The position numbers and the translations under genes were made by a program. Source: Methanobrevibacter sp. YE315 (GTDB lineage Archaea > Methanobacteriota > Methanobacteria > Methanobacteriales > Methanobacteriaceae). From it: a DNA stretch of 64,000 nucleotides. The stretch lies in the NCBI RefSeq assembly GCF_001548675.1, contig NZ_CP010834.1:248001-312000 (forward strand), written 5' to 3'. Below the pieces are notes generated by a model. It was not told the DNA's origin. It saw only the letters and a program-made list of their open reading frames with translations, and did no database searches. Positions 5,385 to 28,251 of the stretch are shown in pieces (the first letter of the stretch is position 1; each line of letters starts with the position of its first letter).

Positions 5385-6059
5385 ATGTTAAAAAGAGTAG
5401 ATATTGTAGGAAATCCAAATTTAGGAGTATTTATTCTAGCAACAGATGATTTAGCTATTGTTCCTTATAACCTTATTGATGAAAAGGTGGAAATTATTAA
5501 GGAAACATTAGAAGTTGACGCTGTTAAATCTTCTATTTCTGGAAGCAGCCTTATTGGATCTTTAGCTGTAGCTAATTCAAATGGTTTAGTTGTTTCCCCA
5601 CATGTTTTAGATAGAGAAATTAAACAGTTTGAAGATTTAGGTTTAAATGTAGCTACTGTTCCAGGTCGTTACACTGCATTAGGAAATATCATTGCAGCCA
5701 ACGACAATGGAGCTATTGTCAGCCCATTTTTATCTGAAGATGCAATCAACATTATTGAAGAGACTTTAGACGTAAATGTCAAAGCAACTTCCATGATTGG
5801 AAGCGACATTATTGGTTCTTTAATCCAAGTTACAAATAAAGGATTTTTAATAAGTTCAAAAGCTGTTCAATCTGAAGTTAGACTTGCTCAAGAAGTATTT
5901 GGTGTAGAAGGGGATATCGGTACTGTTGGAAAAGGAATTCCTTTAGTTGGTGCTTGTTCCATTGCTAATTCAAATGGTGCAATCGTTGCTAAAGATAGTA
6001 CTGGTCCTGAAATGGCTAGAGTTGAAGAAGCATTAGGCTTTTTAGATGATGATTTTTAA
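5385..6059 (+). CDS. eif6: Translation initiation factor aIF6
   Basis: A protein of 224 residues, the full family length. It has the pseudo-fivefold repeat of the pentein fold, with recurring G-S-x-x-I-G-S-L segments (SGSSLIGSLAVANSNG, IGSDIIGSLIQVTNKG) and N-x-x-G turns. aIF6 binds the 50S subunit and blocks premature joining with 30S. A GTGAGG ribosome binding site at 5371 precedes the ATG. Its place between eL31 and eL20 is the usual archaeal order. Confidence 0.97.
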   Translation: MLKRVDIVGNPNLGVFILATDDLAIVPYNLIDEKVEIIKETLEVDAVKSSISGSSLIGSLAVANSNGLVVSPHVLDREIKQFEDLGLNVATVPGRYTALGNIIAANDNGAIVSPFLSEDAINIIEETLDVNVKATSMIGSDIIGSLIQVTNKGFLISSKAVQSEVRLAQEVFGVEGDIGTVGKGIPLVGACSIANSNGAIVAKDSTGPEMARVEEALGFLDDDF

Positions 6060-6083
6060 TTAATATATCATGAGGGATTTTAT

Positions 6084-6308
6084 ATGATAACAAAAATTTA
6101 CAGAGTTAAAGGTACTTTTGTAATGGGCGATGAATATCATAAATTTACTAAAGAATACAAAGCTACTTGTGAAGCTGAAATCGAAGAGAAAATCTACGAA
6201 CGTTTCGGAAGTAAACATGGTATTAACAGGAACCAAATTTCTATCGAAGAAATCGAAGAAATCGCTCCTGAAGATGTTCTTGACCCAATCGTAAAAGAAA
6301 TTTTATAA
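6084..6308 (+). CDS. rpl18a: Ribosomal protein eL20 (L18Ae/LX)
   Basis: A protein of 74 residues, the usual archaeal LX length. The sequence KIYRVKGTFVMGDEYHKFTKE, KIYERFGSKHGINRNQI and IEEIEEI is characteristic. It is a large-subunit protein, in the conserved position between aIF6 and prefoldin alpha. A TGAGGGA ribosome binding site at 6071 precedes the ATG. Confidence 0.95.
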   Translation: MITKIYRVKGTFVMGDEYHKFTKEYKATCEAEIEEKIYERFGSKHGINRNQISIEEIEEIAPEDVLDPIVKEIL

Positions 6309-14289: not shown

Positions 14290-14429
14290 TTTATACACCT
14301 ACTTGATATTATGGTCGGTCTAATATATATTATTTAATTATTAAGATAGACAAATAATGAATTGTGTAAAATAAAATTTCAATTATTCTTTTTGAAGTTA
14401 ATTGGCACAAAAATTATTAGGTGAAAAAA

Positions 14430-14612
14430 ATGGATGACAAAGAAAAAGTGATTGAAGCATTCAGAAATTCCGAAGACCCTTTAAACGCTAAAAAGGTAAG
14501 TGAACTTTCTGGTGTTGAGAAAAAAGAAGTAGATAAAATCATGAAAGAATTAAAAAAGGATGAAACTATAGTTTCTCCAAAAAGATGTTATTGGACACTC
14601 GCTGAAAAATAA
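14430..14612 (+). CDS. Small winged-helix DNA-binding protein
   Basis: A protein of 60 residues: KVIEAFRNSEDPLNAKKVSELSG, then EKKEVDKIMKELKKDETIVSP and CYWTLA. The helix-turn-helix pattern (separate-x-x-LSG followed by a recognition helix and a beta wing ending in YW) is that of a minimal winged helix, seen as stand-alone small proteins in methanogens. The ATG at 14430 follows AGGTGA at 14420. It stands alone, and no regulated target can be named. Confidence 0.75.
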   Translation: MDDKEKVIEAFRNSEDPLNAKKVSELSGVEKKEVDKIMKELKKDETIVSPKRCYWTLAEK

Positions 14613-15209
14613 TATCTTTTACTTTTTTCTATTTTTTGAATAAAAGTTTTATAATGAGTTTCTTGAATGGAATTTTTTTCTAGAAAATGCATATCTTTCC
14701 TTCATTTTTTATTTTTTCAGCTTTTTCATTATTTATGTTTGAAATTTCATGCTTTTGAAATTTAGATTTAATTTTATTTATTTTAAATATCTTTTTTTAA
14801 ATGAAGTTCAATTGACTATATGATACATCCTTAAAAAGGGAGTTTCAGCAACTTTTCATTTTTAAGTTTTAAGAAGGCATACATTTTTTCGATTTTTTAA
14901 AAATTCATCATTTTCGGATAACTGTCTTTCATATGGGGTGTTTTATTTTATAATTTAAAGATCAGATAATCCACATTAAAATATCTGCAGTTTATAGTTT
15001 TTATGGATAAGGGGGCTCTGATTATCTTTTATTGTAAAAAAATAGCCTCCTAGTAAGTCTTTATTTTTTCCATATTTTTAGTTTAAAAAAATGGCTATTC
15101 TTATTTTGTCGAATAATGCTTTAAAATTTATAATTTCAATGATTAAAGCTTTATTAGAGATGATTCAATTTTATATTTTTGTTTTCAAAAAATACATTAA
15201 TTTTCATGC

Positions 15210-15222
15210 TTTACACTTGAAA
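15210..15222 (-). promoter_or_regulatory. Isolated mini-ORB-like 13-mer
   Basis: TTTACACTTGAAA is identical to the 13-base Orc1/Cdc6 binding repeat I recall for Methanothermobacter thermautotrophicus. Its flank TGCACCTCT also matches the copies at 23751-23771 and 23804-23824, which are in the opposite orientation. Confidence 0.5.
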
Positions 15223-15336
15223 TGCACCTCTCACCTATGAGTAAAAATCATGGTAATTTTATCAGAATCACGAGTTTTTCATTATTTTTTTATTTTTTTA
15301 AAATAAGTGGTAAATTGGAAAATTGCCTTATTTTAA

Positions 15337-15350
15337 TAATTTATATATAG
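15337..15350 (+). promoter_or_regulatory. TATA box of the first adhesin gene
   Basis: AATTTATATATAG lies about 60 bases before the TTG start; initiation near 15370 would leave a leader of about 35 bases that contains the AGGGAG ribosome binding site at 15388-15393. Confidence 0.5.
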
Positions 15351-15404
15351 GCGTGGCTAATAGATAATCAATTATATATTAACATTTAGGGAGATGTTAT
15401 TATT

Positions 15405-18400
15405 TTGAAATCTAATAAAGTCATGATAGTTGGTATTTTTTTACTAGCTATTTTCGCAATTGGGGCTGTCAGTGCAGCCGAGGATATTGACACGACAGAT
15501 AATGTTCTTGCAATTGACTCTGTCGATGAAATTGAAATAACACAGGAAGGCTCTGGTGAGCTTTTATGTTTGGCTGGAGACTCCAGTGGGGAAATTTTAG
15601 AGGAGGATGGAAATTCATATTCTGGTGGAAGTTCCACTGTTGACTCTCACTTTTATGGAACTACAATGACTGAACTATCTAATTTCATAAGACCTGCTGT
15701 TGATGGTGATGTCATTTATTTTGAAAATGATATCACCTCAGATCAAGCTTTTGAAAATACAACTAATGGAATACAAATTAACAAATGCATTACAATTAAT
15801 GGTAATGGGCATACAATTGATTTAAAAGGGTTAACACCGGCATTCTTTATTAAAACAACCAATGTTGTCTTGAATAATCTGACAATTAAAAATGGTCGAG
15901 CTTTCCAGAATGGGGGAGTTATTACATCAAGTAGTGTAGGTTCTTGTACCATAACCAACTGTATTTTTATGGATAATGCTGCGGAAGAACGTGGAGGGGT
16001 CATCTATTTAAATAGTGCCGATTCTTGCAATATAATCAATTCCAATTTTATTAATAATCAGGTATTATCATCCAGTATAGGTTATGGCGGTTCTATTTTT
16101 GCTGTCAATCATATTAATGTAAGAAATTGTACTTTTACCAACAATAAAGGAAATTATGGTGGTGCCATTTATTTAAAAAGCACAGGTGATTTGGCCGGTT
16201 GTAATTTTGTTGGCAACACTGCAGCCGGAAAGGGCTTTGGTGGTGCAATTTATGCTGAAAAATATATAAATTTAAATAATTGTAACTTCAACAACAATGA
16301 CGCAAAATATGGTGGTGCTGTTTATTCAGCAAGCAGCGGTTCATGTGATTTGACCGGTTGTAATTTTGTTGGTAACACTGCAATAGAAGGTGCTGGTGTC
16401 TACAGCTTCAATCGGGCTAATTTAAACAATTGTAATTTCACTGATAATACAATTTCCAATAATGTGGATAATAAGGGTGCTCGTGGTGCTGCTTTCTATG
16501 GTTCAGGTTCTTTTAATAATTGTAACTTTATCAATAATCATGCACAAAGTGATAAGAGCTATGGTGGTGGACTCTACATCAAACAAGATTCCACAATAAT
16601 CAACTGTAATTTCGAGGATAATACTGCAGAAATAAGTGGCGGTGCTGTTTATGCAGGTGTCGGCACTACTTTAGAGATAATTAATTCTAATTTCATTAAT
16701 AATCGTGCTCAAGGTGCTAATGGTTATGGTGGTGCTGTTTTTAGCAATATGACCAATGATTTAATTAGTAATTGTAACTTCACTAATAACTATGCAAAAA
16801 ATACCGGTGGTGCAATTTATTCACCAATTGGGGATTGCAATTTAAACGATTGTAATTTTTATGATAATGTTGCAGAAAATATTGCAGGCGCAATTTATTC
16901 AGTCAATGGTGTTTATGAATTAACTGATTGTGATTTTACCAACAATGCAGCAGAATCCGGTGGTGCTTTTTATGGTGGCGGCACATTAAACAATTGTAAC
17001 TTTACTAGTAATAGTGCTACTGCAAATGATGGCGGTGCTGTTTACAGCCTATTGAATTCCAATATGAATAACTGTATTTTCGTTGGCAATTCTGCAGGCC
17101 GTAACGGTGGTGCTACTTACAACAAGCAAACCTCAAATACAAACAATTGTATCTTTAACAATAATAATGCAGGCCGTAACGGTGGTGCAGCATTCAATGT
17201 TAATGCAAACAATTGTGATTTTGTAAATAATAATGCACAAAGTGATAACAGCGGATATGGAGGCGCGATGTATCAAGGTGATGCATCCAATTGTTATTTT
17301 GTAGATTGTTCCGCAGCCAAAAGAGGCGGTGCAATTGCTAATGGTAATGCACATGATTCAATATTCATAAATTGCGATAATCCATACGGTGTTGTTTATA
17401 ATGGTACTTCTGAAAATTGCATGTTCACTGAATCACCGGTTTTATACTGTCCGGACATTACTGTTGATTATGGTGAGGCAATATCCGTGCCAGTAAGAAT
17501 TCTTGACAAGGATGGCAGTGATGTTAACGGATTGCCTGTTGATGTTAAAGTTTATGAAGGCAATAAGCTGATAGATTCTTTTGCTACAGAATCAGGTTCT
17601 AGTGTAACACTAGACGTTGATGCAGGTAGCTATATTATTGCATTAACTAGCAAATATATTGACCCGATTAATGCTCGCCTTGTTGTTAATATTCCAAAAC
17701 CAAGCCCATTTATTTCAGCACCTCCTGTAACAACCCAATACGGCAAAAACGCAGTCATCACTGTTAATTTATTCAGTGATGTTCCTGGAAATGTAAAAAT
17801 CACCATAAATGGTAATACTCAAAAGGCAAAAATCACAAACGGTGTTGCAACATACACAGTTTCCGGATTAAACTATGGCCTATATCCTGTTGAGATTTCA
17901 TATCTTGGTAACTACAAATATGCTGCTGATTCAATTAACACTACTCTTAAAGTGAATAAAAATTCACCAATAGTCTCAATTGTTGCAAATGATATTGCAT
18001 ACAATGAAAATGCAACAGTAACAGTTAATTTAGCAAAAAATGTGGCTGGAAATGTAAGAATAACTGTAAATGGAGTAACTGAAAAAGTTAAAATTGTAAA
18101 TAAATTAGCATCTGCAACATTCACAGGTTTAAAAGCCGGCACACATGACGTAAAAGTAACATATGCAGGTAATATTAACTATGTTGCTCAAACAAAAACA
18201 GCAACTTTAAAAGTTGTTAAAGGAACTCCTATTATTTCAGCTGATGCTCCTGATGCAGATTATGGTGAAGATGCTGTTATCTCTGTTGCTTTATTTAAAG
18301 ATGTTCCGGGCAATGTAAGAGTTACTGTTAATGGAATTTCCGAAAGGACTAAAATCACAAATGGTGAAGCTACTTATACAGTTTCAGGTCTTAAAACTGG

Positions 18401-18998
18401 ATCTTATGAAGTAACAGTATATTATGCGGGCAATGTTAATTATAATGCACAAACTTTTAAAACTACTTTAAATATTGTTAAAGGAACTCCAATTACTGCA
18501 ATTTCTGTTAATAATATTAATGTTGGGGATACTGCTCAAATTAATGTTTTAACCGCAAAAAATGTCAATGGTAATATAAGAATCACTGTTAATGGAGTAA
18601 CTGAAAGAGTTAGAATCGTAAATGGTGTGGCCACTCTAAATGTAACTGGTCTAAAAGCAGGAACTTATGATGTAACTGCAGTTTATGCGGGTAGTACTTA
18701 TTTCAACTCTCAAACAAAAACTGCAACATTAACTGTAAGCAAAGGTTCTCCAGGCTTGTCATTTACCGCAGTAACAAAAAGTGGTAAAACCACTGTAACT
18801 GCCAAAATTGCTCAAGATGCTCCAGGAAATGTGAAAATCATCGTTGATGGTGTTAATACATACACTGCAAAAATCACAAATGGTGTTGCAACATATGCCA
18901 TTTCAGGTTTAGCAAGTGGAAGCCACACAATCAAAGTAACCTACGGTGGAAACTATAAGTATACTTCACAAAGCAGAGCAAAAACAATAACTGTTTAA
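15405..18998 (+). CDS. Adhesin-like protein: beta-helix followed by five Ig-like repeats
   Basis: A protein of 1197 residues. The signal peptide is MIVGIFLLAIFAIGAVSAAE. Residues 70-680 are a right-handed beta-helix with some 25 coils of the form NCxFxxNxAxxxGGAxY, typical of polymorphic-outer-membrane-like repeats. From about residue 765 to the end there are five Ig-like domains of about 86 residues (GNVxITVNGxxxxxKIxNGxAxYxVSGLxxGxxxVxVxYxGNxxY). There is no C-terminal membrane helix or sorting tail; it ends with the last Ig strand (SRAKTITV). Start is TTG at 15405 behind AGGGAG. Such proteins face the cell surface and are thought to mediate attachment to partners or host. Confidence 0.9.
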   Translation: MKSNKVMIVGIFLLAIFAIGAVSAAEDIDTTDNVLAIDSVDEIEITQEGSGELLCLAGDSSGEILEEDGNSYSGGSSTVDSHFYGTTMTELSNFIRPAVDGDVIYFENDITSDQAFENTTNGIQINKCITINGNGHTIDLKGLTPAFFIKTTNVVLNNLTIKNGRAFQNGGVITSSSVGSCTITNCIFMDNAAEERGGVIYLNSADSCNIINSNFINNQVLSSSIGYGGSIFAVNHINVRNCTFTNNKGNYGGAIYLKSTGDLAGCNFVGNTAAGKGFGGAIYAEKYINLNNCNFNNNDAKYGGAVYSASSGSCDLTGCNFVGNTAIEGAGVYSFNRANLNNCNFTDNTISNNVDNKGARGAAFYGSGSFNNCNFINNHAQSDKSYGGGLYIKQDSTIINCNFEDNTAEISGGAVYAGVGTTLEIINSNFINNRAQGANGYGGAVFSNMTNDLISNCNFTNNYAKNTGGAIYSPIGDCNLNDCNFYDNVAENIAGAIYSVNGVYELTDCDFTNNAAESGGAFYGGGTLNNCNFTSNSATANDGGAVYSLLNSNMNNCIFVGNSAGRNGGATYNKQTSNTNNCIFNNNNAGRNGGAAFNVNANNCDFVNNNAQSDNSGYGGAMYQGDASNCYFVDCSAAKRGGAIANGNAHDSIFINCDNPYGVVYNGTSENCMFTESPVLYCPDITVDYGEAISVPVRILDKDGSDVNGLPVDVKVYEGNKLIDSFATESGSSVTLDVDAGSYIIALTSKYIDPINARLVVNIPKPSPFISAPPVTTQYGKNAVITVNLFSDVPGNVKITINGNTQKAKITNGVATYTVSGLNYGLYPVEISYLGNYKYAADSINTTLKVNKNSPIVSIVANDIAYNENATVTVNLAKNVAGNVRITVNGVTEKVKIVNKLASATFTGLKAGTHDVKVTYAGNINYVAQTKTATLKVVKGTPIISADAPDADYGEDAVISVALFKDVPGNVRVTVNGISERTKITNGEATYTVSGLKTGSYEVTVYYAGNVNYNAQTFKTTLNIVKGTPITAISVNNINVGDTAQINVLTAKNVNGNIRITVNGVTERVRIVNGVATLNVTGLKAGTYDVTAVYAGSTYFNSQTKTATLTVSKGSPGLSFTAVTKSGKTTVTAKIAQDAPGNVKIIVDGVNTYTAKITNGVATYAISGLASGSHTIKVTYGGNYKYTSQSRAKTITV

Positions 18999-23122: not shown

Positions 23123-23542
23123 CTATTCTTCTTCTTCGCTTTCAGTGGTTGTAAATTCAGGTTCAATATATTCGGATTCGTCGTAGTATTCGTCATTTTG
23201 TGATCCAAGATAACTTTTAACCAAGTCAGTTATGACTAAACCTAAATCTGATAGGGCCTTGTTTGTTTCACTTCCTTTGCTTAAGTTAAGTACGCGAACA
23301 CCTTCGGCATCAGTTCCTTTTTTAGGAATCATTACCATTGTAATAGGTTCTACACCGGCTCCGGCACCTGCTGCATTGCCTCCTTCTTTACCAAAAAGGC
23401 TTTCGCCAGCTCCAAATCCAACTCCCATTCTCACTACAGGAATTAAGATTTTATCTTCGGTTTCAATCGGTTCGCCGATTACATTGTCAACATTAATAAG
23501 TTTATGTAATTCTTCAACAGTTGTTTTAATATTATTTGCCAT
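23123..23542 (-). CDS. YtfJ/GerW-family protein
   Basis: A protein of 139 residues. The family core is clear: VIGEPIETEDKILIPVVRMGVGFGAGE, a glycine-rich loop (GGNAAGAGAGVEPITMVMIPK) and VRVLNLSKG. The C-terminus is acidic. In spore formers GerW is needed for lysozyme resistance and germination; archaeal members have no known role. A GGATGTGA ribosome binding site precedes the ATG. It is the first gene of the three-gene minus-strand group 23542-22283, and the repeat array lies just upstream of its promoter. Confidence 0.9.
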   Translation of the reverse strand: MANNIKTTVEELHKLINVDNVIGEPIETEDKILIPVVRMGVGFGAGESLFGKEGGNAAGAGAGVEPITMVMIPKKGTDAEGVRVLNLSKGSETNKALSDLGLVITDLVKSYLGSQNDEYYDESEYIEPEFTTTESEEEE

Positions 23543-23702: not shown

Positions 23703-24015
23703 AAGACATAAGTTTCAAGTGTAACTTTTTCCTTATAACTTCTTATTTAAGAGGTGCATTTCAAGTGTAACTTTTTTCTTCTAAGTTATAATTCAAAAAT
23801 CAAGAGGTGCATTTCAAGTGTAACTTCTAACTTATAATCAAAATCGGTGTAAAAAATATATTGCTTATAAGTTATACTAAGAAAAAATCCATGTAAAAAA
23901 TACATTACTTATAAGTTATACATAAGAAAATTCATGTAAGAAATATTTTACTTATAAGTTATACATAAGAAAAATAGTGTAATAAATATGTTACTTTTAA
24001 AGTATTACATGATTT
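23703..24015. repeat. Candidate replication origin: mini-ORB-like elements and AT-rich unit array
   Basis: Seven units of about 43-53 bases fill this gap between genes. The first three each carry TTTCAAGTGTAAC (23713-23725, 23759-23771, 23812-23824), whose complement differs by one base from the Methanothermobacter mini-ORB TTTACACTTGAAA; the last two of these are preceded by AAGAGGTGCA. The next four start with variants of GTGTAAAAAAT (about 23847, 23891, 23934, 23977). Six of the seven units, all but the last, contain TATAACTT, AAGTTATA or the close variant AACTTATAA, and the later ones are nearly pure A/T, suitable for unwinding. An orc1/cdc6 gene lies 3.1 kb away. Function as an origin is inferred, not shown. 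Confidence 0.65.
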
Positions 24016-24045
24016 CAAAATTTTAAAAAAAGAAAAAAAATAGAA

Positions 24046-25188
24046 TCATAAATATGATTCTGCGATGGATGATACACCAGCACCAGCATCTTCAATTACG
24101 CCTAAACCTTTTAAGGTCATACCAATAGCGGCAAAGGTTTGAGTTAATTCTTTGTAGGAGATATTTCCCATGTGTCCGATTCTGAAAATATTTCCTTTCA
24201 AGTGGTCTTGTCCACCAGCCAATTCTACACCATACTTATCACGGGTAGTACCTCTGAATTCAGCATCAGTAATTCCTTCAGGCATTTTAACCGCAGTTAC
24301 AGTAGCGGAAGACACTGCTTCATCAGCAAATAATTCTAAACCTAATGCTTTAACTGCATCTACACTAGCTTTAGCTGCTTTGTGGTGACGTGCAACCCTG
24401 TTTTCAAGTCCTTCTTCCATAACCATTTTCAATGCTTCGTTCATTGCATAGGTAAGTGAAACGGATGGAGTGTATGGAGTTTCAGGTGGGACTTTGTCTC
24501 CACTTTTTCTTACAGCTTTCATGTCTAAATAGTAGGTATTGGTTTCTACTTTATCGACTGCAGCCCAAGCGTCATCGCTTAAGGTAATAGCAGCCATTCC
24601 AGGAGGTGCTGCTAAACATTTTTGAGATCCGGTAAGACAGACATCAATGCCGAATTTTTCAACGTCTACATAATCCCCTCCAAGGGATGATACGGTATCT
24701 ACAATGTATAATGCATCGTAGTTTTTCATTACTTTACCGATTTCTTCAATAGGTGCAGCTACACCAGTGGAAGTTTCATTGTGGATTACACTAACTGCTT
24801 TAATATCTTCATCAGCTTCTAATGCTTCTTCAATTGCTTCAGGTGTTACAGCAGTTCCCCATTCGACTGCTAGCTCTTTGGATTCGATTCCATGAGTCTG
24901 AGCTATTTTCATGAAACGTTCTCCGAATTTTCCACCTACAACATTCAACATTTTTTCTCCAGGTGCTACAGTATTTGCAATACCTGCTTCCATTGCAGCA
25001 GTTCCAGATCCAGTTAATAAATAAGAATTATTTGGAGTTTGGAAAACTTTACTCATTAATTCAGTAGTTTCAGTTAAAATTTCACCATATTTAGCGCTTC
25101 TATGATTTACAACAGCTTTAGACATTGCATTAAGCACTCTAGGGTCCACAGTTGTTGGTCCAGGAAGCATTAATAAAATATCATTCAT
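24046..25188 (-). CDS. Class V aminotransferase (alanine-glyoxylate / serine-pyruvate type)
   Basis: A protein of 380 residues. MLPGPTTVDPRVLNAM at the start, LTGSGTAAMEA near 58, VDTVSSLGG near 163 and the PLP lysine K190 in TGSQKCLAAPPG are the family's marks; RIGHMGN near the end binds the carboxylate side. Methanogen members have been reported as broad-specificity aspartate or phosphoserine-related aminotransferases, so the exact substrate is open. A GGAGG ribosome binding site lies 7 bases before the ATG, and a TATA-like AATATATAAAAAG lies near 25259 on the minus strand. Confidence 0.9.
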   Translation of the reverse strand: MNDILLMLPGPTTVDPRVLNAMSKAVVNHRSAKYGEILTETTELMSKVFQTPNNSYLLTGSGTAAMEAGIANTVAPGEKMLNVVGGKFGERFMKIAQTHGIESKELAVEWGTAVTPEAIEEALEADEDIKAVSVIHNETSTGVAAPIEEIGKVMKNYDALYIVDTVSSLGGDYVDVEKFGIDVCLTGSQKCLAAPPGMAAITLSDDAWAAVDKVETNTYYLDMKAVRKSGDKVPPETPYTPSVSLTYAMNEALKMVMEEGLENRVARHHKAAKASVDAVKALGLELFADEAVSSATVTAVKMPEGITDAEFRGTTRDKYGVELAGGQDHLKGNIFRIGHMGNISYKELTQTFAAIGMTLKGLGVIEDAGAGVSSIAESYL

Positions 25189-27105: not shown

Positions 27106-27141
27106 TAACAATTTTATAATAGTTTAAATAAAGTGGATAAC

Positions 27142-28251
27142 ATGGGAATTGAAGATATTTTAATGTATGATGAAAGTCTTTTTCAAAATATAAATGCTTT
27201 TGATCCGGATTATGTACCTCCAAACTATAATTTTAGAGATACACAAATGGAAGCTATGGCAATGTCCATAAGGCCGGCTATGAGAGGCGGTCAACCTTCA
27301 AACGCAATTGTTTTAGGTTCACCTGCTACAGGAAAAACAACAGCAATTAAGAAAGTTTTTGAGCTTGTTGAAAAGAATACTGAAAAGGTAGTTTGCGTTT
27401 ATATTAATTGCCAAATCCACACTACCCGTTTTGGAATATTCTCACAAATATTTAAAAAGATGTTTGGACATCTCCCACCAGAAACCGGAGTTCCATTTTC
27501 CAGAATCTATGACCAAATCATGCAAAATCTTCAAAAAAATGAAAAATCACTTGTCATCGCATTGGATGATGTCAATTATCTATTCCAATCTAACAATGCT
27601 AATAAAATATTTTATGACATGTTGAGGGCATATGAATTATATCCAGGTGTCAGGACATCTATTTTTGCAATATTGTCCGATTTGGAATTTAAATATGCTT
27701 TTGACAAGAATGTAAATACCGTATTTATTCCTCAAGAAATAAACTTCCCGCTTTACACCTACTCAGAAATTGAAGATATCTTAAGAGATAGGGTAAAAGC
27801 AGGATTTTTCCCAGGTGTGCTAAGCGATGACATTTTAGAGCAGGTTGCAATGTATACTCATGAAAATGGCGATTTACGTATTGGCATTAATCTTTTAAAA
27901 TCATGCGGCAATATTGCAGAAGCTTCAGCAAGCCGTGAAATCACTCAAGAACATTTTGATGAAGCCGTTGACTCATTAGTTTCCATTAATGTCAGTGAAA
28001 CATTAAGTTTGTTAAGTGATGTCGAAAGGGATCTCTTAAAAATGATTGTTGATTGGGATGGAGTTTGTAAGGCTGGTGAATTGGCTGAAATGTTTAAAGA
28101 AAAAACAAACTCCAGTTATGCTTCTTTTAATAGGACATTGGATAAACTTGAATTTGTAAGGCTTATTGATACCAAATTTACAGGAAAAGGGGTTAGGGGA
28201 AATTCCCGTGAAATTATATTGCGTTTTAACCCCGATGAATACAACATCTAA
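27142..28251 (+). CDS. cdc6: Orc1/Cdc6-type replication initiator
   Basis: A protein of 369 residues with the AAA+ and winged-helix layout of archaeal Orc1/Cdc6. Walker A GSPATGKTT is at 59-67; Walker B reads ALDDVNYLF with D143 and D144, where most family members have D-E. EDILRDRVKAGF and GDLRIGINLLKSCG are the lid region. The C-terminal 90 residues (LLSDVERDLLKMIVDW ... FVRLIDTKFTGKGVRGNSREI) form the DNA-binding winged helix. The ATG at 27142 is chosen because TTTATAAT at 27113 lies about 25 bases upstream; a GTG at 27133 is possible. It is a likely binder of the repeat array at 23.7 kb. Confidence 0.92.
   Translation: MGIEDILMYDESLFQNINAFDPDYVPPNYNFRDTQMEAMAMSIRPAMRGGQPSNAIVLGSPATGKTTAIKKVFELVEKNTEKVVCVYINCQIHTTRFGIFSQIFKKMFGHLPPETGVPFSRIYDQIMQNLQKNEKSLVIALDDVNYLFQSNNANKIFYDMLRAYELYPGVRTSIFAILSDLEFKYAFDKNVNTVFIPQEINFPLYTYSEIEDILRDRVKAGFFPGVLSDDILEQVAMYTHENGDLRIGINLLKSCGNIAEASASREITQEHFDEAVDSLVSINVSETLSLLSDVERDLLKMIVDWDGVCKAGELAEMFKEKTNSSYASFNRTLDKLEFVRLIDTKFTGKGVRGNSREIILRFNPDEYNI

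Follow-up and report, generated by a model that had tools for sequence, protein, structure and literature searches.

A conserved array of initiator boxes and segA-type motifs in Methanobrevibacter: a candidate Orc1-1/SegB composite site distinct from the main origin

An intergenic gap near 272 kb in the genome of Methanobrevibacter sp. YE315 carries an array in which initiator boxes (ORBs) are interleaved with a second motif, TTATAACTTATAA, that also fills the region upstream of segA. The array is conserved among relatives, coincides with no break in nucleotide skew and is not the chromosome's main origin. The reading that we favour – at a probability of roughly 0.55 – is that it constitutes a conserved composite site of Orc1-1/SegB type, at which initiation of replication would be coupled to, or balanced with, segregation. 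Which proteins bind the array, and what they do there, we infer from the sequence.

The array was analysed within a stretch of 64,000 bases (the window), which spans bases 248,001–312,000 of a single contig of 2,273,296 bases; its features are collected in Table 1. It opens with three exact copies of TTTCAAGTGTAAC on the plus strand (window positions 23713, 23759 and 23812) – three of the five exact occurrences in the 2.27 Mb genome – and continues with four AT-rich units of 43–44 bases, just as the preliminary description had it. That description also took the repeats for ORB-type initiator boxes, and the extended form, AGAGGTGCATTTCAAGTGTAA, indeed agrees with the ORBs of the real origin; in Methanothermobacter, Orc1/Cdc6 binds a 13-bp repeat, TTTACACTTGAAA. 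An element of AAGTTATA/TATAACTT type had further been attributed to six of the seven units: five hold the exact octamer (the three beyond the ORB-bearing units at 23869, 23913 and 23956), and the sixth has only the variant AACTTATAA. Between the gap and the nearby orc1/cdc6 gene lie genes for a class-V aminotransferase and a YczE-like membrane protein together with mptE, that is, mptE and two others where three others had been counted. A search of the gap against Rfam found no RNA family.

Table 1. Features of the array and associated loci (window positions unless given as genome positions)
Feature	Position	Strand	Remarks
Solitary full ORB, no second motif	15211..15231 (= 263.2 kb)	-	in 14299-15404 gap
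YtfJ-like gene (Spore_YtfJ)	23123..23542	-	left gap boundary in most relatives
ORB 1 (AGACATAAG + TTTCAAGTGTAAC)	23704..23725	+	weakest extended match
segA-type motif TATAACTT after ORB 1	23734..23741	+	
ORB 2, full extended form AGAGGTGCATTTCAAGTGTAAC	23750..23771	+	
segA-type motif AAGTTATA after ORB 2	23783..23790	+	
ORB 3, full extended form	23803..23824	+	
Variant motif AACTTATAA after ORB 3	23829..23837	+	
Four AT-rich 43-44-nt units without ORB	23840..24018	+	TTATAAGTTATA in 3 of 4 units (23865, 23909, 23952)
Class-V aminotransferase	24046..25188	-	right gap boundary
Orc1-2, second divergent Orc1/Cdc6	27133..28251	+	2qby_A E 2e-31; 2v1u_A E 6e-36
segA-upstream cluster	genome 17,749-18,163 (L014 7749-8163)		about 400 bp; packed TAAGTTA-type half-sites, conserved positions

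The order of YtfJ-like gene, gap and aminotransferase gene is kept across most of the genus, and comparison of the gap in related genomes, proposed earlier as a check, bore out the array: defined as two or more ORBs, it is present in 39 of the 54 genus genomes judged, with 2–6 ORBs each. The aminotransferase tree on which these were placed holds 56 genus genomes, two of them left unjudged because the contig ends; a first scoring gave 38 with the array and 16 without, and G030 was then reassigned, its five-ORB array being parted from the aminotransferase gene by an inserted gene. Over 33 homologous gaps the ORB count was 125, where dinucleotide shuffles gave 0.7, and AAGTTATA/TATAACTT octamers numbered 117, where shuffles gave 3.6; the repeats of the array exceed chance. 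Across the same gaps all ORBs but one (124 of 125) share an orientation, and 60 of 91 intervals between them measure 53–54 bp. An exact octamer comes after 74 of the ORBs, in 47 cases at an offset of 22 nt. Most array ORBs have the TTATAACTTATAA motif next, usually at 22 nt, and the consensus unit reads AGAcrTgcaTTTCAAGTGTAACTTTTcACTTATAAcTTaTaA. The tree, many of whose inner branches are weak, was fitted by one gain of the array at the base of a clade of 50 genomes, with later loss in one nested clade and a few single genomes; genomes G033, G014, G078 and G128 are all without it. Since a nested clade has lost it, the array is dispensable.

The main origin lies elsewhere. A gene of Orc1-1 type occupies 39.7–40.9 kb, away from the array; in the gap on its upstream side are six ORBs, four in one orientation facing two in the other. 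Joint analysis of GC and AT skew, with coding strand corrected for, puts the break at 41 kb and the terminus near 1.08 Mb (219 bins of 3 kb, sampling about one third of the chromosome, regressed on coding strand and replichore), and moving the origin to the array (about 271–272 kb) costs some 50 log-likelihood units. The same was found in genome G010, where a break at its own oriC (402 kb) is 48 units better than one at its own array (603 kb). An extra break at the array gains only 0–0.2 log units here (271.8 kb) and at most 0.7 units in either genome; skew reflects long-term history, and a rarely used origin could leave no skew break. The earlier proposal that the gap is a chromosomal origin gives way to the skew break and the two-way ORB cluster beside the Orc1-1 gene, both at 41 kb – a skew minimum and initiator repeats elsewhere being what that proposal had itself named as counting against it. 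The array has the ORB cluster of an oriC, with the same extended ORB consensus; it has neither the break in GC/AT skew nor ORBs that stand beside the initiator gene and flank an AT-rich core, facing it from either side. Of the unit consensus, oriC conserves the ORB part alone, and the ORBs there lack the second motif.

It is unlikely, if conceivable, that the array is a dormant or conditional second origin which fires rarely, with Orc1-1 on the ORBs, the AT-rich 43-nt units melting and Orc1-2, encoded nearby, lending help. Clustered full ORBs do adjoin an AT-rich repeat block, and the second orc1/cdc6 gene, 3 kb off, is kept near the aminotransferase gene across the genus; but it is found there in genomes with and without the array, the skew signal is absent at the array in two genomes, the array ORBs share one orientation whereas those of oriC face each other, and oriC is without the second motif. 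The preliminary description had looked to this nearby Orc1/Cdc6 as binder of the array. The likely ligand of the array ORBs is Orc1-1 rather than the divergent Orc1-2 (E 2e-69 versus E 2e-31, both to 2qby_A). A scan of named genomes with Orc1-2 as the query returned two loci only, both in Methanobrevibacter. Orc1-2 was also considered as reader of the second motif and set aside, as every other genus checked has the motif upstream of segA and Orc1-2 keeps its place in genomes without the array.

An origin captured from a plasmid or virus was set aside because BLAST searches of plasmids and phages with the gap as query turned up nothing beyond short AT-rich matches, all of them in bacteria or their phages, and because no composite unit of ORB and second motif was found in viral contigs. 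One viral contig of 12 kb (IMGVR_UViG_3300028242_001578, from IMG/VR) carries three host-type ORBs in a single intergenic gap (5999–6230), as if the virus had borrowed the host initiator.

The character of the second motif emerges from its other location. A whole-genome scan with the pattern ACTTATAAGTTATA showed it clustered at two positions, 18.1 kb and the array, and otherwise only in scattered single places, and among 684 kb sampled only two low-GC intervals held at least three octamers: the region upstream of segA (seven) and the array (five). The former lies 23 kb from the origin, directly upstream of the segAB operon, in which a ParA-type SegA and SegB are encoded (16.4–17.7 kb, with the SegB gene at 16.4 kb). 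SegB, the partner encoded downstream of the ParA-type gene, starts MARKGLGKGLDSLIP, as ParB does, and matches Sulfolobales SegB by sequence and profile (PDB 7duv/7dv2, E 1e-6); its structure prediction is of low confidence (mean pLDDT 54). The TATAACTT element, assigned at first to an AT-rich origin, is instead the motif found upstream of segA, and it occupies that position in the other genera inspected, closely packed in relatives and reduced to a few copies in distant families. It is found there across the order, even where the array is absent, and persists out to other families though the gene beyond it differs. In an unbiased ranking of 8-mers, six words lead upstream of segA in 14 genomes outside the genus, and all six recur among the top seven of ORB-masked arrays. 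The segA-upstream cluster has no paired ORBs; it is a candidate centromere and/or operator, with some form of it across the whole order.

As the same motif fills the segA-upstream region throughout the order, the likeliest role of TTATAACTTATAA is that of DNA site for the SegAB system. The assignment draws on Sulfolobus, where the known binding place of SegB is a set of sites upstream of segA (PMC5120986). In Sulfolobales the SegB palindrome is TCTAGASTCTAGA, and more degenerate sites are expected in Euryarchaeota (PMC12284271). By reading, that palindrome is present neither in the array nor upstream of segA, where the motif is of AAGTTATA type. Because of this difference SegB is proposed as the reader of AAGTTATA from position alone, and a different regulator of segAB could read it instead. 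Two marks of a SegAB centromere-like site are nonetheless in place at the array: SegA and SegB are both encoded in the genome, and the segA-upstream motif is shared.

A further connection between the array and segAB comes from an ORB that follows the segB stop by no more than about 100 nt and occurs nearly always in array-bearing genomes. Array and segB-adjacent ORB are both present in 25 genomes, both absent in 14 and discordant in 3 (G004, G030 and G016), counts over related genomes that reduce, as independent events, to roughly one gain and two losses of both together. Such co-variation is unexplained if the array only titrates Orc1-1, as a datA-like sink with the second motif as a structural or chromatin element, and so is the near-fixed register of the segA-upstream motif; we hold this to be slightly less probable than the dormant origin. 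The array is, to be sure, an ORB cluster far from the origin and by skew not the main one, and, as titration of the datA kind supposes, initiator boxes lie outside the origin, among them solitary full ORBs that are mostly intergenic. These solitary full-length ORBs are found at genome positions 30.3, 77.8, 263.2, 586.9 and 624.4 kb, all five on the minus strand. Beyond the gap that holds the one at 263.2 kb, window positions 15405–18998 encode on the plus strand a protein of 1197 residues that reads as adhesin-like, with Ig-like repeats and numerous short ones.

Transcriptional control of the ytfJ-like gene or the aminotransferase gene, through Orc1-1 and a second regulator, is improbable: the first ORB typically stands upstream of ytfJ, some 100 nt from its start, but the integrity of the array is independent of its distance to either flanking gene – it is intact at 413 and 547 nt from ytfJ in two genomes, and in G030 with a whole gene between it and the aminotransferase gene – and most array-less relatives retain both flanking genes.

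The composite site that we favour could operate as follows. Orc1-1, whose gene sits beside the real origin, would bind the full ORB of each complete unit, and SegB would read the TTATAACTTATAA motif of the same unit. As the units run in one direction and recur every five helical turns or so, the bound proteins would be stacked on one face of the DNA, with Orc1-1 and SegB on alternating sites some 230 kb from the origin. The array might then act in segregation as an accessory, centromere-like site, sensing the initiator or keeping it in balance. Pairing or balancing the initiator with a segregation protein could ensure that segregation comes after initiation, or that free initiator is held in check.

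The nature of archaeal centromeres and the way in which archaea coordinate segregation with replication are listed as open questions (PMC5120986), and SegB sites are ill-defined in Euryarchaeota (PMC12284271). For gut methanogens, the two motifs offer candidate sites at which binding by each protein can be tested. Conservation of the segA-upstream motif extends over an entire archaeal order, and the composite array forms a discrete locus open to deletion or relocation. A bolder claim, to which we give a little less than an even chance, is that a single conserved element sets initiator and segregation protein next to each other in phased 53-bp units, forms a physical link between initiation and segregation in archaea, and brings with it the first SegAB centromere-type motif in methanogens.

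The array invites comparison with three known systems. With archaeal oriC regions bound by Orc1/Cdc6 it shares the ORB sequence, including the AGAGRTG extension, clustered in an intergenic gap; unlike them it has no skew break and no adjacent Orc1-1 gene, its boxes lie in one orientation only, and its units contain an extra motif. As with the SegB site clusters of Sulfolobales, the motif is concentrated upstream of segA with more copies elsewhere on the chromosome, but the methanogen motif belongs to the AAGTTATA family rather than TCTAGASTCTAGA, and here one secondary cluster stands in register with initiator boxes. In bacteria, datA/DARS and origin-proximal parS clusters are initiator boxes or centromere sites that lie away from the origin and affect initiation or segregation. 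The array likewise has such sites at a distance from the origin; its function is putative and the protein families differ, and, unlike the bacterial loci, it interleaves both kinds of site within one repeat unit.
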